From Methanonatronarchaeales archaeon (lineage in GTDB: Archaea; Halobacteriota; Methanonatronarchaeia; JAANXF01), in NCBI GenBank assembly GCA_018263395.1, contig JAANXF010000007.1:1-59321 (forward strand): a stretch of DNA of 59,321 nt, read 5' to 3'. The notes beneath the pieces are model-generated. The model was not told the DNA's origin, searched no databases, and saw nothing but the letters and a program-made list of their open reading frames with translations. A program made the position numbers and the translations under genes. Within the stretch, counting starts at the first letter, position 1, and each line of letters starts with the position of its first letter. Shown here one piece after another: positions 12,213 through 48,552 of the stretch.

Positions 12213-12677
12213 ATGAGGGTAGGCGACGTGATGACTGCGGAGGTGGTGGCCCTGGAACCGGGGATGACTCTGAGGGAGGCAGCGGAGACCCTGAGGGGGC
12301 ACGGTATAAGCGGGGCCCCGGTCGTGGAGCGCGGCGACCTGGTGGGCGTACTGAGCGAGGGCGACGTCGTCAAGGCCCTTAGGACCGGCGAGCTGGGCTA
12401 CGGGCTCTGGTTCCCAAGCCCCTTCGAACTCGTGGAGGTCCCCCTCAGGAACCTGATTCGGTGGAGGAAACTGAGGGACGAGCTCGAGGAGTCCGGCGAC
12501 CTGTACGTCGGGGACGTCATGACGGAGAGCGTGAAGACGGCATCGCCGAACGACACCGTGGAGGATGCAGCGGAAACCATGACACGGCACAGGATCAACA
12601 GGTTGCCCGTCCTGAGGGGCGGCGAGGTGGTGGGCATCGTGACGAGGGAGGACATAATCAGGGGACTGGTCGGATGA
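12213..12677 (+). CDS. Two-CBS-domain protein inside the arg operon
   Basis: 154 aa, two CBS domains (about residues 1-55 and 95-154) forming one Bateman module. Each starts with a VGDVMT motif and closes with a V(G)xxxxxDxx turn (LVGVLSEGDVV, VVGIVTREDII). The linker holds an aromatic/basic stretch (YGLWFPSPFELVEV). Such modules bind adenosine nucleotides. It starts 3 bp after argC and its TGA overlaps the argJ ATG, so it is translated with arginine enzymes and may sense adenylate charge for them. There is no partner enzyme domain. Confidence 0.85.
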   Translation: MRVGDVMTAEVVALEPGMTLREAAETLRGHGISGAPVVERGDLVGVLSEGDVVKALRTGELGYGLWFPSPFELVEVPLRNLIRWRKLRDELEESGDLYVGDVMTESVKTASPNDTVEDAAETMTRHRINRLPVLRGGEVVGIVTREDIIRGLVG

Positions 12678-14530: not shown

Positions 14531-14905
14531 CTACCCGTCCGCCTTTTCCCTGAAGGCGGAGGGTAGGTGTACGACGTAGCGCCCGGCCTCACCGATGGAC
14601 AGGATGATCTCCTCCTTCTCGAGCAGGGAGGCCACGTTTATCTCGTACGAACCCTCGTCCAGGACCCTGACGGACTCTATGTCGCCGTCCCTGAGGGTAA
14701 GCGCCTCGGCGCCGGATTCGTGGACCCTCTCCAGCTCCCCGATGATGCCCCCTCCATCACCCGCCGGCTCCGCTGCCTCCTTATCTGAGCCGTCCTCCTC
14801 CAGTATGTACCTGAAGCGGTTCCAGCCGCACTCGGGGCAGCCCGACAGGATTTCCTCGGTGCCGTTCGGGTAGACGGTATCGCAGCCCGTGCACTGGTGC
14901 GGCAT
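14531..14905 (-). CDS. Zinc-ribbon protein of the OapC/ArvC type
   Basis: 124 aa. An N-terminal zinc ribbon (CTGCDTVYPNGTEEILSGCPECG; Cys at 5, 8, 23, 26) is followed by an acidic linker, then a C-terminal segment starting SVRVLDEGSYEINVASLLEKEEIIL, the hallmark of this family. It sits directly after OapB and the Era-like GTPase in the conserved euryarchaeal trio. In haloarchaea the GTPase (ArvA) of this trio has been linked to extracellular vesicle formation; I recall this from the literature and it was not tested here. Likely a partner or regulator of the GTPase. Confidence 0.8.
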   Translation of the reverse strand: MPHQCTGCDTVYPNGTEEILSGCPECGWNRFRYILEEDGSDKEAAEPAGDGGGIIGELERVHESGAEALTLRDGDIESVRVLDEGSYEINVASLLEKEEIILSIGEAGRYVVHLPSAFREKADG

Positions 14906-15274
14906 CTACGCCGCTCTCACCAGGGTCTGTATCACGTCTCGGTCCTTGTGTATCGTCTGGACCTGGTTGGCCGGACCCACCACCGTGAGTCTGGTCCTCA
15001 GCCCTCCGTCGCCGCCGAGCAGCTTCTTCAGGAAGTTGGGGCTGCTTCCCTCGTCGCTGGGGTAGCTCTCCATCTCGATCCCGGGGAAGTCGTCTGGCGA
15101 TATCTCCGTCATTGTTATCTCGATGAGCTTGGCCTCCTCTCCCGGCGTGAGGCCGTTCTCCAGCACCACGACGTTTCCGCCCCGGACCTCGTCCAGTATG
15201 AACCTGATCTTCTCCATGCTCCCCATGCTGCGGAGCCTGTCCTTCGAAACGAGATTTAGCTGTACTTCTGTCAT
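14906..15274 (-). CDS. OapB/ArvB family protein (DUF2073)
   Basis: 122 aa from the ATG at 15274, which is preceded by GGGTGA overlapping the GTPase stop; a GTG at 15283 is the alternative. It reads MTEVQLNLVSKDRL, MEKIRFILDEVRGGNVVVLENGLTPGEEAKLIE and a C-terminal LLGG...LTVVGPANQVQTIHKDRD, typical of the DUF2073 family found beside Era-like GTPases in euryarchaea. Middle gene of the GTPase-OapB-OapC trio, with 0-4 nt between genes. Biochemical role unknown; probably binds the GTPase. Confidence 0.82.
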   Translation of the reverse strand: MTEVQLNLVSKDRLRSMGSMEKIRFILDEVRGGNVVVLENGLTPGEEAKLIEITMTEISPDDFPGIEMESYPSDEGSSPNFLKKLLGGDGGLRTRLTVVGPANQVQTIHKDRDVIQTLVRAA

Positions 15275-15279
15275 CGCGG

Positions 15280-15921
15280 TCACCCGAAGTGGTGTATCAT
15301 GGATTCGTAGAGCTCTTCGATTCCTTCGCCCTCGAGGGCCGACGTCTGTACGACCGGGTGCTGCGGAAAGGCGTCCATGATTCTCTGGGGAGAAGCGCCG
15401 TCTTGGTCGGTCTTGTTGGCCACGATGAGCAGGGGCAGCTTCCTGGCCTCCATGTTGCCTATTATGGTAACGTTGGCCTGGTTGAAGGGGTCCTTGGTGG
15501 AGTCCATCACGAGGAGAACGGCGTCGCAGTCGTTTATCCAGTTTATCGCCTCGATGACGCCCTCGGTGGCCTCCTTGGCACGGTCCTTCGCCTCCTCGTC
15601 CTTCATCTCGAAGTCGGTTACGAACTCCTCGAAATCTATCTTTGTGGCGATTCCGGGCGTGTCGACGATGTCGAGGTGAAGGGAGGCGCCGTTGCTCTGA
15701 ACGGTCAGGTCGGCTCGCTTCATCGCTCGACGGGTTTCGTGGGGAATCGGCGAGGCGGGCCCCATCTCCTCCCCTGCCAGGTCCTTGACTATGCGATTTG
15801 CCAGCGTGGTCTTACCCGCGTTCGGCGGTCCGTAAATACCTATGGACGCCTTCTGTTTGCCGAAGAAGCTATCCATCCAGCTGGACAGAGTCGGCTTCTT
15901 GAGCCAGCTCAGAAGGCCCAT
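15280..15921 (-). CDS. Era-like/Ras-superfamily small GTPase (OapA/ArvA type)
   Basis: 213 aa from ATG 15921, with GAGAGGTG a few bases upstream. An amphipathic N-terminus (MGLLSWLKKPTLSSWMDSFF) could touch membrane. G motifs: GPPNAGKTT (G1, near 31), DTPG (G3), NKTD (G4) and SALEG (G5). It leads the conserved GTPase-OapB-OapC operon. Proteins of this family have been tied to extracellular vesicle formation in euryarchaea (known of the family; inferred here). A TATA-like ATTTAAATA lies 47-55 bp upstream on this strand. Confidence 0.87.
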   Translation of the reverse strand: MGLLSWLKKPTLSSWMDSFFGKQKASIGIYGPPNAGKTTLANRIVKDLAGEEMGPASPIPHETRRAMKRADLTVQSNGASLHLDIVDTPGIATKIDFEEFVTDFEMKDEEAKDRAKEATEGVIEAINWINDCDAVLLVMDSTKDPFNQANVTIIGNMEARKLPLLIVANKTDQDGASPQRIMDAFPQHPVVQTSALEGEGIEELYESMIHHFG

Positions 15922-16204: not shown

Positions 16205-16741
16205 ATGGAAACCAAGATGCCGGTCAGGGAAATCATGAGCACAAACGTGGTCTCCTGCATGGGTGAGGAGACCGTGCAGGAAGTGGCCCACGGAATGGCG
16301 GACAACGGCGTGGGTAGCACCATAGTCGTGTCCGGGAGAGAAGCCGTCGGCATACTGACCGAGAGGGACATTGTGCGCAAGGTCGTCGCCAAGAACCTGC
16401 CGGTCGACAGGGTGAAGGCGGAGGAGGTCATGGCGTCGCCCCTGATCGGGATCGACCCCGACAGGGAGGTCAACGAGGTGGCCAGGAAGATGCGGGAAAA
16501 CGGCGTCAAGAGGTTCCCCGTCGTAGAGGAAGGCGAGGTTATAGGCGTCGTAACTCAGACCGACCTGTTGTCGGTTGCCCCCGAGGTCACGGAGATACTC
16601 GAGGAGCTTGCGAAGTTCAGGCCCGGGGCGGAATCCGCCGAGTGGACGTCCGGAATCTGTGACGTGTGCGGCTCCTTCGTGGAGTCCCTCCAGGAGAGCG
16701 ACGGCCAGCTGGTCTGCGAATCCTGTGGAGAGGGGCTGTAG
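16205..16741 (+). CDS. Two-CBS-domain protein with C-terminal zinc ribbon
   Basis: 178 aa. CBS 1 (about residues 5-60: VREIMSTNVVSC ... VGILTERDIVRKV) and CBS 2 (about 72-128: AEEVMASPLIGI ... IGVVTQTDLLSV), then a ribbon CDVCGSFVESLQESDGQLVCESCG near 155-177 that should hold one zinc. The combination suggests an adenylate-sensing module linked to a nucleic-acid- or protein-binding ribbon. First gene of a five-CBS-gene operon; GGAGGGT lies 4 nt upstream of the ATG. Confidence 0.87.
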   Translation: METKMPVREIMSTNVVSCMGEETVQEVAHGMADNGVGSTIVVSGREAVGILTERDIVRKVVAKNLPVDRVKAEEVMASPLIGIDPDREVNEVARKMRENGVKRFPVVEEGEVIGVVTQTDLLSVAPEVTEILEELAKFRPGAESAEWTSGICDVCGSFVESLQESDGQLVCESCGEGL

Positions 16742-16748
16742 AGGGTTG

Positions 16749-17519
16749 ATGCCGTTGAGGGTTTCGGACGTACTGGAGGAATTCCCGGCGCTCGGGCAGG
16801 AGGAGTTCGTGACGAGGGCGAGAAAGTTAATGCGTGAGGAGAAGGTGCACGAGCTACCCGTAATCGACAGCGACGGTGGGGTGGCGGGAGTGGTCCGGCA
16901 GGGAGCCATCCTCAGCGTCACGTCCACGAAGAGCAACGTCACCGTGGCCGGATACCTCGAGGACCTCGCCGGCGTGGCGGCGGACAGCTCGGTGGAGGAC
17001 GCTGCCCGGGAGATGGTGCGCAAGGACCTGGACCTGATCCCGGTAACCGGCGAAGGGGGGTACGTCGGTGCTCTCCGGCTCTCGTCCGTCTTCGAGTCCC
17101 TGGAGGTCGGCGCCTCCGGGGAGGACGTTGGGAGCAACATGTCTTCCGAGGTGAGGTGTTGCGAGGCCTCGGAGCCGTTGTCGAAGGTGTGGCTGAACAT
17201 GATGGAGTCGGGGTACACCGGGTACCCGGTGGTCAAGGGGGGCAGGCTCGTGGGGATGGTCACGGCTAGCGACGTCATAAGGGAGGGCCACGTCCGGGTG
17301 AAGAGGGAGAGCCGCACGGGCGAAAATGCGAGGGAGAGCGTGCCCGTGGAGAACATAATGTCGACGCCGGTCGTAACTGCAGAAACGGGCGACAGTGTCG
17401 ATAGAGCTGCGGAGAAGATGAGGAAACACTCCGTAGGGAGGCTCCCGGTCCTGGAGGGCGAAAAGGTCGCCGGCATAATAGACAGGTACGACGTTATCGC
17501 GGCAGTTATGGGTGATTGA
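16749..17519 (+). CDS. Four-CBS-domain protein (1 of 4)
   Basis: 256 aa made only of four CBS domains, two Bateman modules. The first two are diverged (VSDVLEEFPALGQEEFV ..., VAGYLEDLAGVAAD ...), lacking the usual VMT start; the last two are canonical (VGSNMSSEVRCCE ... LVGMVTASDVI and VENIMSTPVVTAE ... VAGIIDRYDVI). Loss of typical motifs in the first pair suggests that only the second binds nucleotide. It lies 7 bp after the CBS-zinc-ribbon gene and overlaps the next by 4 nt. Confidence 0.83.
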   Translation: MPLRVSDVLEEFPALGQEEFVTRARKLMREEKVHELPVIDSDGGVAGVVRQGAILSVTSTKSNVTVAGYLEDLAGVAADSSVEDAAREMVRKDLDLIPVTGEGGYVGALRLSSVFESLEVGASGEDVGSNMSSEVRCCEASEPLSKVWLNMMESGYTGYPVVKGGRLVGMVTASDVIREGHVRVKRESRTGENARESVPVENIMSTPVVTAETGDSVDRAAEKMRKHSVGRLPVLEGEKVAGIIDRYDVIAAVMGD

Positions 17520-18454
17520 GGTTGTCGAGGAATTATTCAGGAGGGAGGAAAGACCCGAAGATGGTGAAGCAGGCACTCGACAGGGGGCCGGCGGAGCTCA
17601 AGACCCGTCTATCCGAGGACGAGGGGCGGATAGGTGCGATAGGAAACCGCGAGGTCGTAACCGTTCCGCCGAGCATGACGATAATGGGTGCGGCCAAGAC
17701 GATGGCGAGATACGGCTTCCGCCGCATACCGGTGGCGGACCCGGGTACCGGCAGGCTGGAGGGAATCCTTACGTCGTTCGACATCGTGGACTTCTGCGGC
17801 GGAGGTGAGCGGTACCTGCTGGTCGAGGAGAGGCACGGTGGAAACCTGCTCTCCGCCGTCAACGAGTCTGTCAGCGAAATCATGAACGACGTGTTCGCCG
17901 TGGGCGAGGACAGCAGTCTGAAGGACGTACTGGCCGAGATGTTTGCCAGAAACATAGGAGGCGTCCCCGTCGTGGACCAGGGGGGGAGGGTAAAGGCCAT
18001 CGTTACGGAGAGGGACTTCGTCTGGCTCCTTTCCGAGGCTTACATCCCTTCGCCCGTCGAGGAATACATGACCGAGAACGTTATATCCGCAAACCCCGGC
18101 AGGACTATACGCGAAGCCGCCGTAACCATGGTGGGCAACGGCTTCAGGAGGCTCCCAATCGTGAGGGACGGCCTGTTGATAGGCATGGTCACCTCGACCG
18201 ACGTGGTCAGGTATCTCGGCTCCGGAAGGGCGCTGAAACGCCTCGTCACGGGGGACTCCGAGGAGTCCTTCGGTCTGCCTGTCACAGAAATCATGTCGGG
18301 GGAGGTGGTCACGGTGGAGAGAAGCACTCCGCTCGGTGACGCTGTTAACCTTATGACGGAGAGGGGAATCGGTTCTCTGCCGGTGCTTGGCGACGAAGGG
18401 CTACGGGGAATCATCACGGAGAGGGACTTCCTCCGGGCACTCACGGGTGAGTGA
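17516..18454 (+). CDS. Four-CBS-domain protein (2 of 4)
   Basis: 312 aa. An N-terminal tail of about 45 residues precedes four CBS domains. Domain 1 (EVVTVPPSMTIMGAAKTM ... LEGILTSFDIV) lacks a VMT start; domains 2-4 each begin with a -EIM/-EYMT motif (VSEIMNDVFAV, VEEYMTENVISA, VTEIMSGEVVTV) and end with TERDF or TSTDV. The TTG start overlaps the previous TGA. As with its neighbours, no catalytic domain is attached, so it may act as a soluble adenylate sensor or as a regulatory subunit of an unknown partner. Confidence 0.82.
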   Translation: MRLSRNYSGGRKDPKMVKQALDRGPAELKTRLSEDEGRIGAIGNREVVTVPPSMTIMGAAKTMARYGFRRIPVADPGTGRLEGILTSFDIVDFCGGGERYLLVEERHGGNLLSAVNESVSEIMNDVFAVGEDSSLKDVLAEMFARNIGGVPVVDQGGRVKAIVTERDFVWLLSEAYIPSPVEEYMTENVISANPGRTIREAAVTMVGNGFRRLPIVRDGLLIGMVTSTDVVRYLGSGRALKRLVTGDSEESFGLPVTEIMSGEVVTVERSTPLGDAVNLMTERGIGSLPVLGDEGLRGIITERDFLRALTGE

Positions 18455-18455
18455 G

Positions 18456-19322
18456 ATGGCTACTGTGCTGGACGTAATGACCACGCCGGTGTACGTGGTA
18501 GGTCCTGAGGACACGGTCTCCCACGCCCGCATGACCATGCTCAGCAGGGACGTCGGCCGCCTCGTCGTCGTGGAGGAGGACACCGACACCCCGGTGGGCG
18601 TCATAACTAAGAACGACATAGCGGAGGGTAACGCCCGGAACGAGCCACCGAGGCTAAGGCGATCCATCGACTCACAGAGGGTCTCCCGCTACATGGCGGG
18701 ACGCGTCGTCACCACGAGGCCGGGTACGGGGATGCGGGAGGTGGCGCACAAAATGCTCGATGAGGGCGTGAGCGGCCTCCCGGTGGTGGACGGTGAAGGG
18801 TCACTCACCGGAATCGTCACGAAGCACGACCTTACGCGACACTTTTCAGAGAGCGGCAGCGGCCTGAAGGTGAACGACATCTACACGTCGGGCGTGACTG
18901 GAGTCCACAGGCACAGCTCCATAAACCACGTCGTGAAAGAGATGAGGGAGAACGGAATCCACAGGGTGGTGGTCAAGGAGGACAACGGCTTCCCCGTCGG
19001 GATTATCACGAGGAGCGACCTCGCGTTCACGGAGTTCGGGGAGGCCGCGAGCGGCATGCGTGAGAAGGACGTAAAGATGACGCGAAAAGTGGAGAAAGGG
19101 GGCGAGAAGAGGCTCCGCTCGGTCGTCAGGGTGAACCTCGTCGCCGAGGACGTGATGACCGAGGACGTGACCAGCGTCGACATGAATTTCTCGGCGACCG
19201 ATGCAGCCAAGTTGATGCTCGAGAGGGGGGTAAGCGGCCTGCCGGTGCTGGGGCACGACGACATGGTGGGGATAGTGACGAAAACGGACATCGTGAGGGC
19301 CGTAGCGGAGGAAGGGTCGTGA
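18456..19322 (+). CDS. Four-CBS-domain protein (3 of 4)
   Basis: 288 aa, four CBS domains: VLDVMTTPVYVVG ..., VSRYMAGRVVTT ..., VNDIYTSGVTGVHRH ... and VAEDVMTEDVTSVD .... A basic linker rich in Lys/Arg (MREKDVKMTRKVEKGGEKR, near residues 203-222) separates the third and fourth domains and could contact RNA or an acidic partner. It starts one base after the previous stop and overlaps the next start by 4 nt. Confidence 0.82.
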   Translation: MATVLDVMTTPVYVVGPEDTVSHARMTMLSRDVGRLVVVEEDTDTPVGVITKNDIAEGNARNEPPRLRRSIDSQRVSRYMAGRVVTTRPGTGMREVAHKMLDEGVSGLPVVDGEGSLTGIVTKHDLTRHFSESGSGLKVNDIYTSGVTGVHRHSSINHVVKEMRENGIHRVVVKEDNGFPVGIITRSDLAFTEFGEAASGMREKDVKMTRKVEKGGEKRLRSVVRVNLVAEDVMTEDVTSVDMNFSATDAAKLMLERGVSGLPVLGHDDMVGIVTKTDIVRAVAEEGS

Positions 19323-20095
19323 AGGTCAGGGAGCTAATGGTGGAGCCGCTCACGGTGGACAAGAGCGACCACCTCTCTCACGCCATAGACCGGATGGAGA
19401 AGGCGGGTTCGTCGTGGATAGTCGTAACCTCCTCGGGGGAACCGGTAGGAGTGACCGGTTACAGGGACCTGGGCATCGAACTGGGCTCCGTGAAGAAGAG
19501 GGACCTTCCGGCTTCAGCCCTCCACGTGGCCACCGCCACGCGGGGAATAGACGAACCCCTCTCCTGGAACGACGACGTTTCGGAGGGGGCCAAGAGATTG
19601 ACGGAGATGGGTGTCGGTACGCTTCCGGTCTTTGACGAGGACGGGGGTATGGTGGGCATGCTGAGGGACGAGGAACTCCTCGCCCTCGTCGACTCCGGGG
19701 AACCGGTCTCGAGCGTCATGGAGGCAGCGATGAGCCTGAGCCCCGACGACCGGCTGGTGCACGCACGGCAACTCATGCTGGATAACGACGTGTGGCGCCT
19801 TCCGGTGGTGGAGAGCGGGCGGCTCGTCGGCATGCTCACCGAGACCGACGTGGCGAAGACGATGAAGAGCTTCCGGGACCTGGTGCCGGGGGACCAGCAG
19901 GATACCAGGGTCCGCAACATACTCGTCGAGGACGTGATGTCCACCGACATGACCAGCTGCAGGGACTCCGACCCTGTCAGAGATGCGCGGGACCTGCTCC
20001 TGGAGAACGATGTCGGCGGCCTGCCGGTGCTGGACCGCGACGGCGACCTGTCGGGCATGGTCACGCGCAGCTACATAATCAAGCTCCTCGTATGA
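19319..20095 (+). CDS. Four-CBS-domain protein (4 of 4)
   Basis: 258 aa, four CBS domains: VRELMVEPLTVDK ..., a diverged second (SALHVATATRGIDEPLSW ...), VSSVMEAAMSLSP ... and VEDVMSTDMTSCRD .... It starts with GTG overlapping the previous stop and ends overlapping the RNA-ligase ATG, so the ligase is made in a fixed relation to the CBS proteins. The four quadruple-CBS genes look like ancient tandem duplicates because order, size and overlaps are the same but sequences have drifted. Confidence 0.82.
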   Translation: MKVRELMVEPLTVDKSDHLSHAIDRMEKAGSSWIVVTSSGEPVGVTGYRDLGIELGSVKKRDLPASALHVATATRGIDEPLSWNDDVSEGAKRLTEMGVGTLPVFDEDGGMVGMLRDEELLALVDSGEPVSSVMEAAMSLSPDDRLVHARQLMLDNDVWRLPVVESGRLVGMLTETDVAKTMKSFRDLVPGDQQDTRVRNILVEDVMSTDMTSCRDSDPVRDARDLLLENDVGGLPVLDRDGDLSGMVTRSYIIKLLV

Positions 20096-21198
20096 CGGTG
20101 GAGGAGGCAGCCGAGGCGCTGAGCCTCCCCCTCTTCAGGCTGGAGGGTCTGCTGGAACGCGGGACCGTGGCCGAGAGGGACGGCTACCTCCGCTTCAAAA
20201 AGTCCGTTGCCGGAAAGGAGCGCGGCACCGCTTACTTCGAGGAGGCCGGCGACGTGGTGCGTGGCTTCCCGAAGATACGGAGAATCCTCATGCTCGACCC
20301 CGGGGTCCCGAACCGCTTCGAGGGCGAGGTCGTCGTCGAGGAGAAGATGAACGGCTACAACGTCCGGATAGCCAGGGCGGGGTCCGAAACGGTCGCCCTC
20401 ACCCGCGGGGGCGTCAGGTGCCCCTACACCGAGCACTGGGTCCATCGACTGATGGGTGAGGAGGCCTTTAGCGACCTCCCGGAACTGGTAATCTGTGGCG
20501 AGATGGTGGGTCCCGACAACCCCTACGTCGTCTCCGACGCCTACGGCGTAGAGTCCGTGCAGTTCTTCGTGTTCGACGTGAGGCGGAAGGGGAGCAACGA
20601 GCCCCTGCCGGTCGACGAGAGGAGGGAACTCGTCGAGGGATACGGCCTGTCCGGGGTGCGGGAACTCGCGAGGGTGGGGGCCGGCGAAACGGACGAAATC
20701 CGGGAAATCGTCGAGGACCTCGACTCGAGGGGCAGGGAGGGCGTGGTTATGAAGGACCCCGCGATGGACCTGGATCCGGTGAAGTATACCACCTCCAGCG
20801 GAAACTGCAAGGACCTCAGGTACGCATTCCGCTACTTCCAGGAGTACGGCGCCGACTTCATATACCCACGTGCGGTCAGGGAGGGATTCCAGGCAGTGGA
20901 GTTCGAAGCGGACATGGACGAGAGGGCGAACAGGCTCGGCAGGGCCATACTGGAGCCACTCGCCGAGACCGCGGTGGCCGGGCGTAAGGGGGAGAGGATA
21001 CTCGAACCCGTCTCTGTGAGAGTCTTCGACCTCTCCGTGGTCGAGGAATTCGAGCGACACCTCCGCTCCACAGGCGTCGACGCCATCTTCAGGGAGCCCG
21101 AGGAGCTCGACGACGGCAGCTACAGGGTCAGGATAGACCGCGTGAGGCAGGGAACGGACGACAAGACAGCGAACCTCCTCGCCGGGGGGTTCTGGTAG
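20092..21198 (+). CDS. ATP-dependent RNA ligase, Rnl3 family
   Basis: Archaeal homodimeric RNA ligase of the Pab1020/MthRnl type (368 aa, normal length). The lysine nucleophile is in EEKMNGYNVR (K-x-x-G, near residue 85); ICGEMVGPDNPYV, REGVVMKDP and DPVKYTTS are the later nucleotidyltransferase motifs. The C-terminal region with QGTDDKTANLLAGGFW is typical of the family. It seals 5'-phosphate/3'-OH ends and can circularise RNA; natural targets are unsettled. It closes the CBS operon with an ATGA overlap. I recall CBS genes beside the ligase in methanogens too, so the pairing may be ancient. Confidence 0.9.
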   Translation: MTVEEAAEALSLPLFRLEGLLERGTVAERDGYLRFKKSVAGKERGTAYFEEAGDVVRGFPKIRRILMLDPGVPNRFEGEVVVEEKMNGYNVRIARAGSETVALTRGGVRCPYTEHWVHRLMGEEAFSDLPELVICGEMVGPDNPYVVSDAYGVESVQFFVFDVRRKGSNEPLPVDERRELVEGYGLSGVRELARVGAGETDEIREIVEDLDSRGREGVVMKDPAMDLDPVKYTTSSGNCKDLRYAFRYFQEYGADFIYPRAVREGFQAVEFEADMDERANRLGRAILEPLAETAVAGRKGERILEPVSVRVFDLSVVEEFERHLRSTGVDAIFREPEELDDGSYRVRIDRVRQGTDDKTANLLAGGFW

Positions 21199-48123: not shown

Positions 48124-48552
48124 GTGATAGAATTGACCATTAATGAAGTCGCCAGATCTGACGTGATTACAGTCGGGCCGGGCGCGTATGTGGAGGAGAT
48201 GGTCCAGGTAATGAGGGACGAGAAGGTGGGAAGCGTGGTCGTGGAGGACGACGGAACCCCGGTCGGCATAGTCACCGACCGCGATATCGCGTTAAGGGTT
48301 CTGGGCGAGGGAGACGGTAGCTCCGGGGTCACGGCCGGCGAGGTGATGACCGGGGACCCGGTTACCGCCGACGCCGGCGACGGCGTATACGACGTGGTTC
48401 GGAAGATGTGCAGCGAGGAGGTCAGGAGGATACCCATCGTCGACGAAGGAGAGCTGGTGGGCATCGTGACTCTCGACGACCTCGTGGTCCTGCTCGCTGC
48501 CGAGTTGCAGAACCTCTCGGGCGTGATTCAGTCGGAATCCCCGCCGTACTGA
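48124..48552 (+). CDS. Stand-alone two-CBS-domain protein
   Basis: 142 aa, one Bateman pair: TINEVARSDVITVGPGAYVEEMVQVM ... VGIVTDRDIALRVL and AGEVMTGDPVTADAGDGVYDVV ... LVGIVTLDDLVVLLAAEL. C-terminal tail QSESPPY. GTG start with the TATA-like CCTTTATCC about 32 bp before it. Single gene between ahbC and arcS, similar in plan to bacterial stress-type CBS proteins. Ligand unknown, probably an adenosine nucleotide. Confidence 0.85.
   Translation: MIELTINEVARSDVITVGPGAYVEEMVQVMRDEKVGSVVVEDDGTPVGIVTDRDIALRVLGEGDGSSGVTAGEVMTGDPVTADAGDGVYDVVRKMCSEEVRRIPIVDEGELVGIVTLDDLVVLLAAELQNLSGVIQSESPPY

Follow-up and report, generated by a model that had tools for sequence, protein, structure and literature searches.

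Archaeal ribosome hibernation is now being mapped, and a study of 2026 described some CBS modules as having unresolved roles (PMC13324472). That study defined the CBS-module families CM-1 to CM-6 and described gene clusters, including CM-5/4/1/2, which was proposed to encode ribosome-hibernation factors; CM-1, CM-4 and CM-5 were located in dormant ribosomes of Methanosarcina acetivorans (PMC13324472). Archaea generally carry either HibA or CBS modules, in a pattern of mutual exclusion (PMC13324472). HibA contains a 4-CBS module that sits in the tRNA sites, and AMP binding by this module has been measured (PMC13324472); nucleotides had no clear effect on the binding of HibA to the ribosome. Ribosome-bound CBS modules are also present in Dri of Pyrobaculum (9e6q chain 3), a single chain of 655 aa in which two modules are fused. 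Five CBS genes in a row (AMET1_0341-0345) have been mentioned for Methanonatronarchaeum, and most of the CBS proteins were highly abundant.

The physiological role of the RNA ligase Rnl3 is debated. Knockout of Rnl in T. kodakarensis abolished the circularisation of C/D-box sRNAs and led to a pile-up of aberrant rRNA fragments. A link between HARP and Rnl3 has been reported, every ligase-positive genome being also HARP-positive. The locus described here joins five CBS genes to an Rnl3 gene. The CBS cluster itself is already known, and its tie to an RNA ligase is apparently undescribed: our literature search on archaeal CBS domains and Rnl3 found no description of the linkage, and the term 'RNA ligase' is absent from the main text of PMC13324472.

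Organization of the locus

The window, i.e. the whole stretch of 59,321 nucleotides that was analysed, contains at 16205-21198 a gene with two CBS domains and a zinc ribbon, four genes with four CBS domains each and the Rnl3 gene, all on the + strand (Table 1). Pfam counted 18 CBS domains across P0001-P0005 and detected no other domain, HPF/RaiA included, above its cut-off in these five proteins, in agreement with a preliminary description of the locus as one CBS-zinc-ribbon gene and four quadruple-CBS genes, all without a catalytic domain. The count of 22 CBS domains in the window given there was confirmed as well, two further genes adding two domains each; genome-wide there were 46 CBS matches, so that 22 of the 46 lie inside 59 kb of a genome of 1.17 Mb. 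The genes had also been described as a gapless run fused by overlaps, which overstates the case a little: two of the five junctions overlap, P0004/P0005 and P0005/ligase (-4 nt each), and at the other three the spacings from P0001 onwards are +7, about +41 and +1 nt. The divergent neighbours OapC, OapB and the Era-like GTPase adjoin the cluster also in loci of Methanohalarchaeum, Methanocellales, Mnemosynella and Archaeoglobi.

Table 1. Genes of the CBS-ligase locus, its divergent neighbours and the other CBS genes of the window
Feature	Position	Strand	Description
CBS gene	12219-12671		two CBS domains
OapC	14531-14905	-	divergent neighbour of the CBS cluster
OapB	14906-15283	-	divergent neighbour of the CBS cluster
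Era-like GTPase	15280-15918	-	divergent neighbour of the CBS cluster
P0001	16205-16741	+	two CBS domains and C-terminal four-cysteine zinc ribbon, Ta0289-like; leads the cluster
P0002	16749-17519	+	four CBS domains; orthologue of ribosome chain 9znf_4
P0003	17561-18454	+	four CBS domains; orthologue of ribosome chain 9znf_5; near MJ1225
P0004	18456-19322	+	four CBS domains; orthologue of 9zni_6; resembles the C-terminal half of Dri
P0005	19319-20095	+	four CBS domains; orthologue of 9zng_7/9zni_7; GTG start overlaps the P0004 stop
P0006	20092-21198	+	predicted Rnl3 ATP-dependent RNA ligase; start and P0005 stop overlap in ATGA
CBS gene	48142-48495		two CBS domains

CBS proteins and their ribosome-bound orthologues

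In a search of solved structures, the four 4-CBS proteins corresponded one-to-one to the four CBS chains of the entries 9znf, 9zng and 9zni, and all four positions were covered. P0002 matched its chain with E 2e-41, P0003 with E 7e-78, P0004 with E 4e-54 and P0005 with E 3e-51. A Methanosarcina uL2 query showed that the uL2 chain of these three entries is the same as in 9nri, 9nta, 9o17 and 9ou7, which are ribosome entries of M. acetivorans; because this chain is common to the known entries, 9znf, 9zng and 9zni were taken as M. acetivorans ribosomes. In a Methanosarcina genome (L110) the operon copies of P0003 and P0004 hardly differ in sequence from chains 9znf_5 and 9zni_6, respectively. Hibernation is presumably the state of the ribosomes in the three entries. 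The orthologues of P0002 and P0003 share one ribosome entry and those of P0004 and P0005 share another, which suggests that the proteins act in these pairs. P0001 and the ligase had no orthologous match among the chains of these ribosomes.

P0004 also matched Dri (9e6q_3, E 1.6e-21), within the C-terminal half of the latter. Judging from this match and from the order of the cluster, P0002, P0003, P0004 and P0005 would correspond to CM-5, CM-4, CM-1 and CM-2, respectively. The published CM-5/4/1/2 cluster (PMC13324472) resembles the locus of the window in its four consecutive standalone 4-CBS genes, their fixed order, the orthologues in the M. acetivorans ribosome and the exclusion of HibA, whereas the window adds the leading 2-CBS zinc-ribbon gene and the closing Rnl3 gene. 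The run AMET1_0341-0345 is presumably the same cluster. Unlike the two fused modules of Dri, the modules of the window are encoded by separate genes (256-297 aa), and unlike HibA, the five CBS proteins lack a C-terminal HPF/RaiA domain. The basic loop between CBS3 and CBS4 of P0004 is conserved, with a net charge of +4 versus -6 for the whole protein. In P0001 the cysteines of the ribbon (Cys152/155/171/174) are invariant in an alignment of 47 sequences. The AlphaFold model of P0001 (pLDDT 81) matched the fold of Ta0289 (1pvm, 2qh1) over 170 columns, and Ta0289 likewise consists of two CBS domains and a C-terminal metal ribbon, but the sequence similarity between the two is confined to the CBS part. 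With ribosome-bound orthologues and membership in the published family, from which the storage role is derived, the block is probably a ribosome-hibernation cluster, and regulating RNA ligation is not its main task.

The ribose-binding motif [ST]xx[DN] was present in 86/86 sequences in both CBS domains of P0001, in 87/90, 89/90, 72/90 and 90/90 sequences in domains 1-4 of P0003, and in 85/85 and 84/85 sequences in domains 1-2 of P0004; it is weak in P0005. All four adenylate motifs are present in the P0003 of the window. Three ADP and one AMP are present in MJ1225, which apart from the chains of the ribosome entries is the solved protein most closely related to P0003 (E 6e-61). Adenylate sensing by the CBS cluster, as had been supposed in the preliminary description, is plausible from the conserved motifs and the ligands of MJ1225. 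The P0002 of the window has lost the motif from domains 1-2, though most of its relatives retain both, and it forms a long branch in the tree of 4-CBS modules described below.

Conservation and ancestry of the cluster

The neighbourhood was surveyed in about 120 loci, that of the window among them and a few genomes counted twice, which were ligase loci from named genomes and from a phylum sample, Methanobacteria being left out; the CBS genes of each locus were scanned and assigned to positions 1-5. The CBS-ligase neighbourhood, the conservation of which had been put forward as a check on the preliminary description, is conserved, with the full order 1-2-3-4-5-ligase in 67 of about 120 loci. 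Fifteen loci of the Archaeoglobaceae type have the order 1-3-ligase, and the remaining loci are without one or more members, partly because contigs end. A deviating gene order was found in none of the about 120 loci. The genes MTH1221-1226 were considered as a possible parallel to the cluster, but the literature search gave no match for these locus names and they were left out of the comparison.

In a maximum-likelihood tree of 103 4-CBS modules each position formed its own clade, with supports of 100/99 for P0002, 99/98 for P0003, 100/98 for P0004 and 96/88 for P0005. Because each position is a clade of its own, the 4-CBS genes were inherited as distinct genes and are not local duplicates. 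The set of five CBS genes is thus old within the archaea. A recent tandem duplication in the genome of the window was ruled out by the tree, in which every position predates the sampled classes. Chance clustering was ruled out by the order kept across classes together with the position-specific clades.

The HibA C-terminal sequence was used as the query for HibA, as PF02482 was too insensitive and missed the Haloferax control. The HibA C-terminal domain was detected in 0/10 of the cluster-bearing genomes tested, including that of the window (78% complete), and in 9/9 of the tested ligase genomes with a reduced cluster or no cluster beside the ligase, namely six halobacterial genomes, G133 and two Archaeoglobaceae. 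The mutual exclusion with HibA thus holds in the genomes tested.

RNA ligase and its linkage to the cluster

The last gene had been named an Rnl3 RNA ligase from the sequence, and the profile search bears this out: P0006 scored 375.5 bits against TIGR01209 (cut-off 137) and contains the Lig_C and RNA_ligase domains. The catalytic-lysine motif EEKMNGYN (K85) is retained. The closest solved protein is MthRnl (5d1o, E 1e-81), in which EEKMNGYN is identical; with MthRnl and with PAB1020 (2vug), P0006 shares full-length homology, the catalytic motif and the Lig_C domain.

Co-occurrence was counted in a sample of 295 genomes, with P0005 as the marker of the cluster. The ligase and P0005 were both present in 60 genomes, and in 58/60 they lay <=5 kb apart; a further 66 genomes had P0005 but no ligase, and 60 had the ligase but no P0005. 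The association of their presence was weak (odds ratio 1.65, Fisher p 0.04, without correction for kinship). A possible ligase start overlaps the stop of the last CBS gene by 4 nt in 25/93 loci. The ligase-less genomes retained the CBS cluster, mostly complete or nearly so. In G010, which like G020 belongs to the class of the window genome, Methanonatronarchaeia, only some 80 residues from the C-terminus of the ligase are left and the frame of P0005 is broken, the rest of the cluster being intact (L144:8452-9870). Because cluster and ligase are often found without each other and the ligase has decayed in a genome of the same class, the ligase is dispensable for the function of the cluster. Conversely, halobacterial genomes carry the ligase without CBS neighbours, and in Ethanoperedens the CBS cluster lies elsewhere in the genome than the ligase. 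The linkage between the cluster and the ligase is real and old, and it is optional, not obligate.

Other genes adjoin the cluster or the ligase in some lineages. A divergent AIM24-family gene lies between the two in Methanosarcina (L110:5274-6149). In two ligase-less families a gene for deoxyhypusine synthase, which modifies aIF5A, directly follows the CBS cluster (L137:8077-9078, L143:8812-9984) and forms another link to translation. Nearly all of the phylum matched deoxyhypusine synthase, and for G010 and G020 there was no match at E 1e-30 among the matches listed.

Proposed function and alternative explanations

On the observed gene order, orthology, motif conservation and linkage, and on the finding of the orthologues in ribosome structures of Methanosarcina, we base a model that we consider likely as a whole, namely that this cluster of standalone CBS modules stores ribosomes at low energy and that Rnl3 serves the same programme of RNA preservation. 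A low energy charge would raise AMP and ADP, and CBS modules, singly or paired, would then fill the vacant functional sites of the ribosome, possibly the tRNA and mRNA sites. The occupied ribosome would be held inactive and protected, and in this sense stored. The energy input would come from adenylate-filled CBS pockets, above all those of P0003, which may gate the process. Rnl3 would be made from the same message, at its 3' end, if the genes are co-transcribed, and would seal or circularise RNA within the ribosome-preservation programme, and it would not itself be regulated by a CBS complex.

A more specific version, in which Rnl3 is the RNA-repair arm of archaeal hibernation, re-sealing nicked rRNA or tRNA or circularising the guide RNAs of stored ribosomes while the CBS modules adjust both processes to the balance of adenylates, is offered tentatively and is rather doubtful. 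The conserved linkage raises the testable question of whether dormant ribosomes undergo repair in addition to being plugged, and Rnl3 gains a second genomic partner beside HARP.

The ligase loci of Archaeoglobaceae bear on a division of labour within the operon, in which P0001 and P0003 would work with the ligase and P0002, P0004 and P0005 would be ribosome plugs, so that one operon would hold two functions. P0001 and P0003 are the sole CBS genes beside the ligase in the 15 loci of this type, HibA was present in both such genomes tested, and these two proteins have the best-retained adenylate motifs; from this combination of P0001, P0003, ligase and HibA, the two proteins may have a second, ligase-related role. 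However, the orthologue of P0003 is itself a ribosome chain and the pair is also present without an adjoining ligase (L145, L146), and we regard the full division as rather improbable.

It is equally doubtful that the ligase just travels with a conserved operon, being kept there by nothing but co-expression, and that HARP is its real partner. Besides the reported presence of HARP in all ligase-positive genomes, we found HARP in 12/12 genomes tested, and it adjoins the ligase in 3/3 halobacterial genomes checked, where Rnl3 has HARP and not CBS genes as its neighbour; the weak association of ligase and cluster points the same way. Against this, inertia alone would hardly have preserved the linkage for so long, as it is found in Methanonatronarchaeia, Methanosarcinia, Archaeoglobi/Mnemosynella and Hydrothermarchaeota, and the genes often overlap. 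The reading of the preliminary description, an adenylate-sensing CBS complex that directly regulates RNA ligation and for which no mechanism is known, would fit the close linkage, the 4-nt overlaps, the conserved adenylate motifs and the Archaeoglobaceae loci, but it is very unlikely, as four of the five CBS proteins have orthologues that are ribosome-bound chains of a proposed hibernation cluster, cluster and ligase each occur without the other in 60 genomes or more, the ligase has no CBS neighbours in Halobacteria, the cluster lies elsewhere in the genome in Ethanoperedens, and a decayed ligase stands beside a largely retained cluster within the same class.

The ligase gene is split in G002 (L090), and in one genus of Methanosarcinaceae (G099, G040, G031, G256 and G211, e.g. 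L097) the Rnl3 frame runs on past one in-frame TAG, which may encode pyrrolysine.
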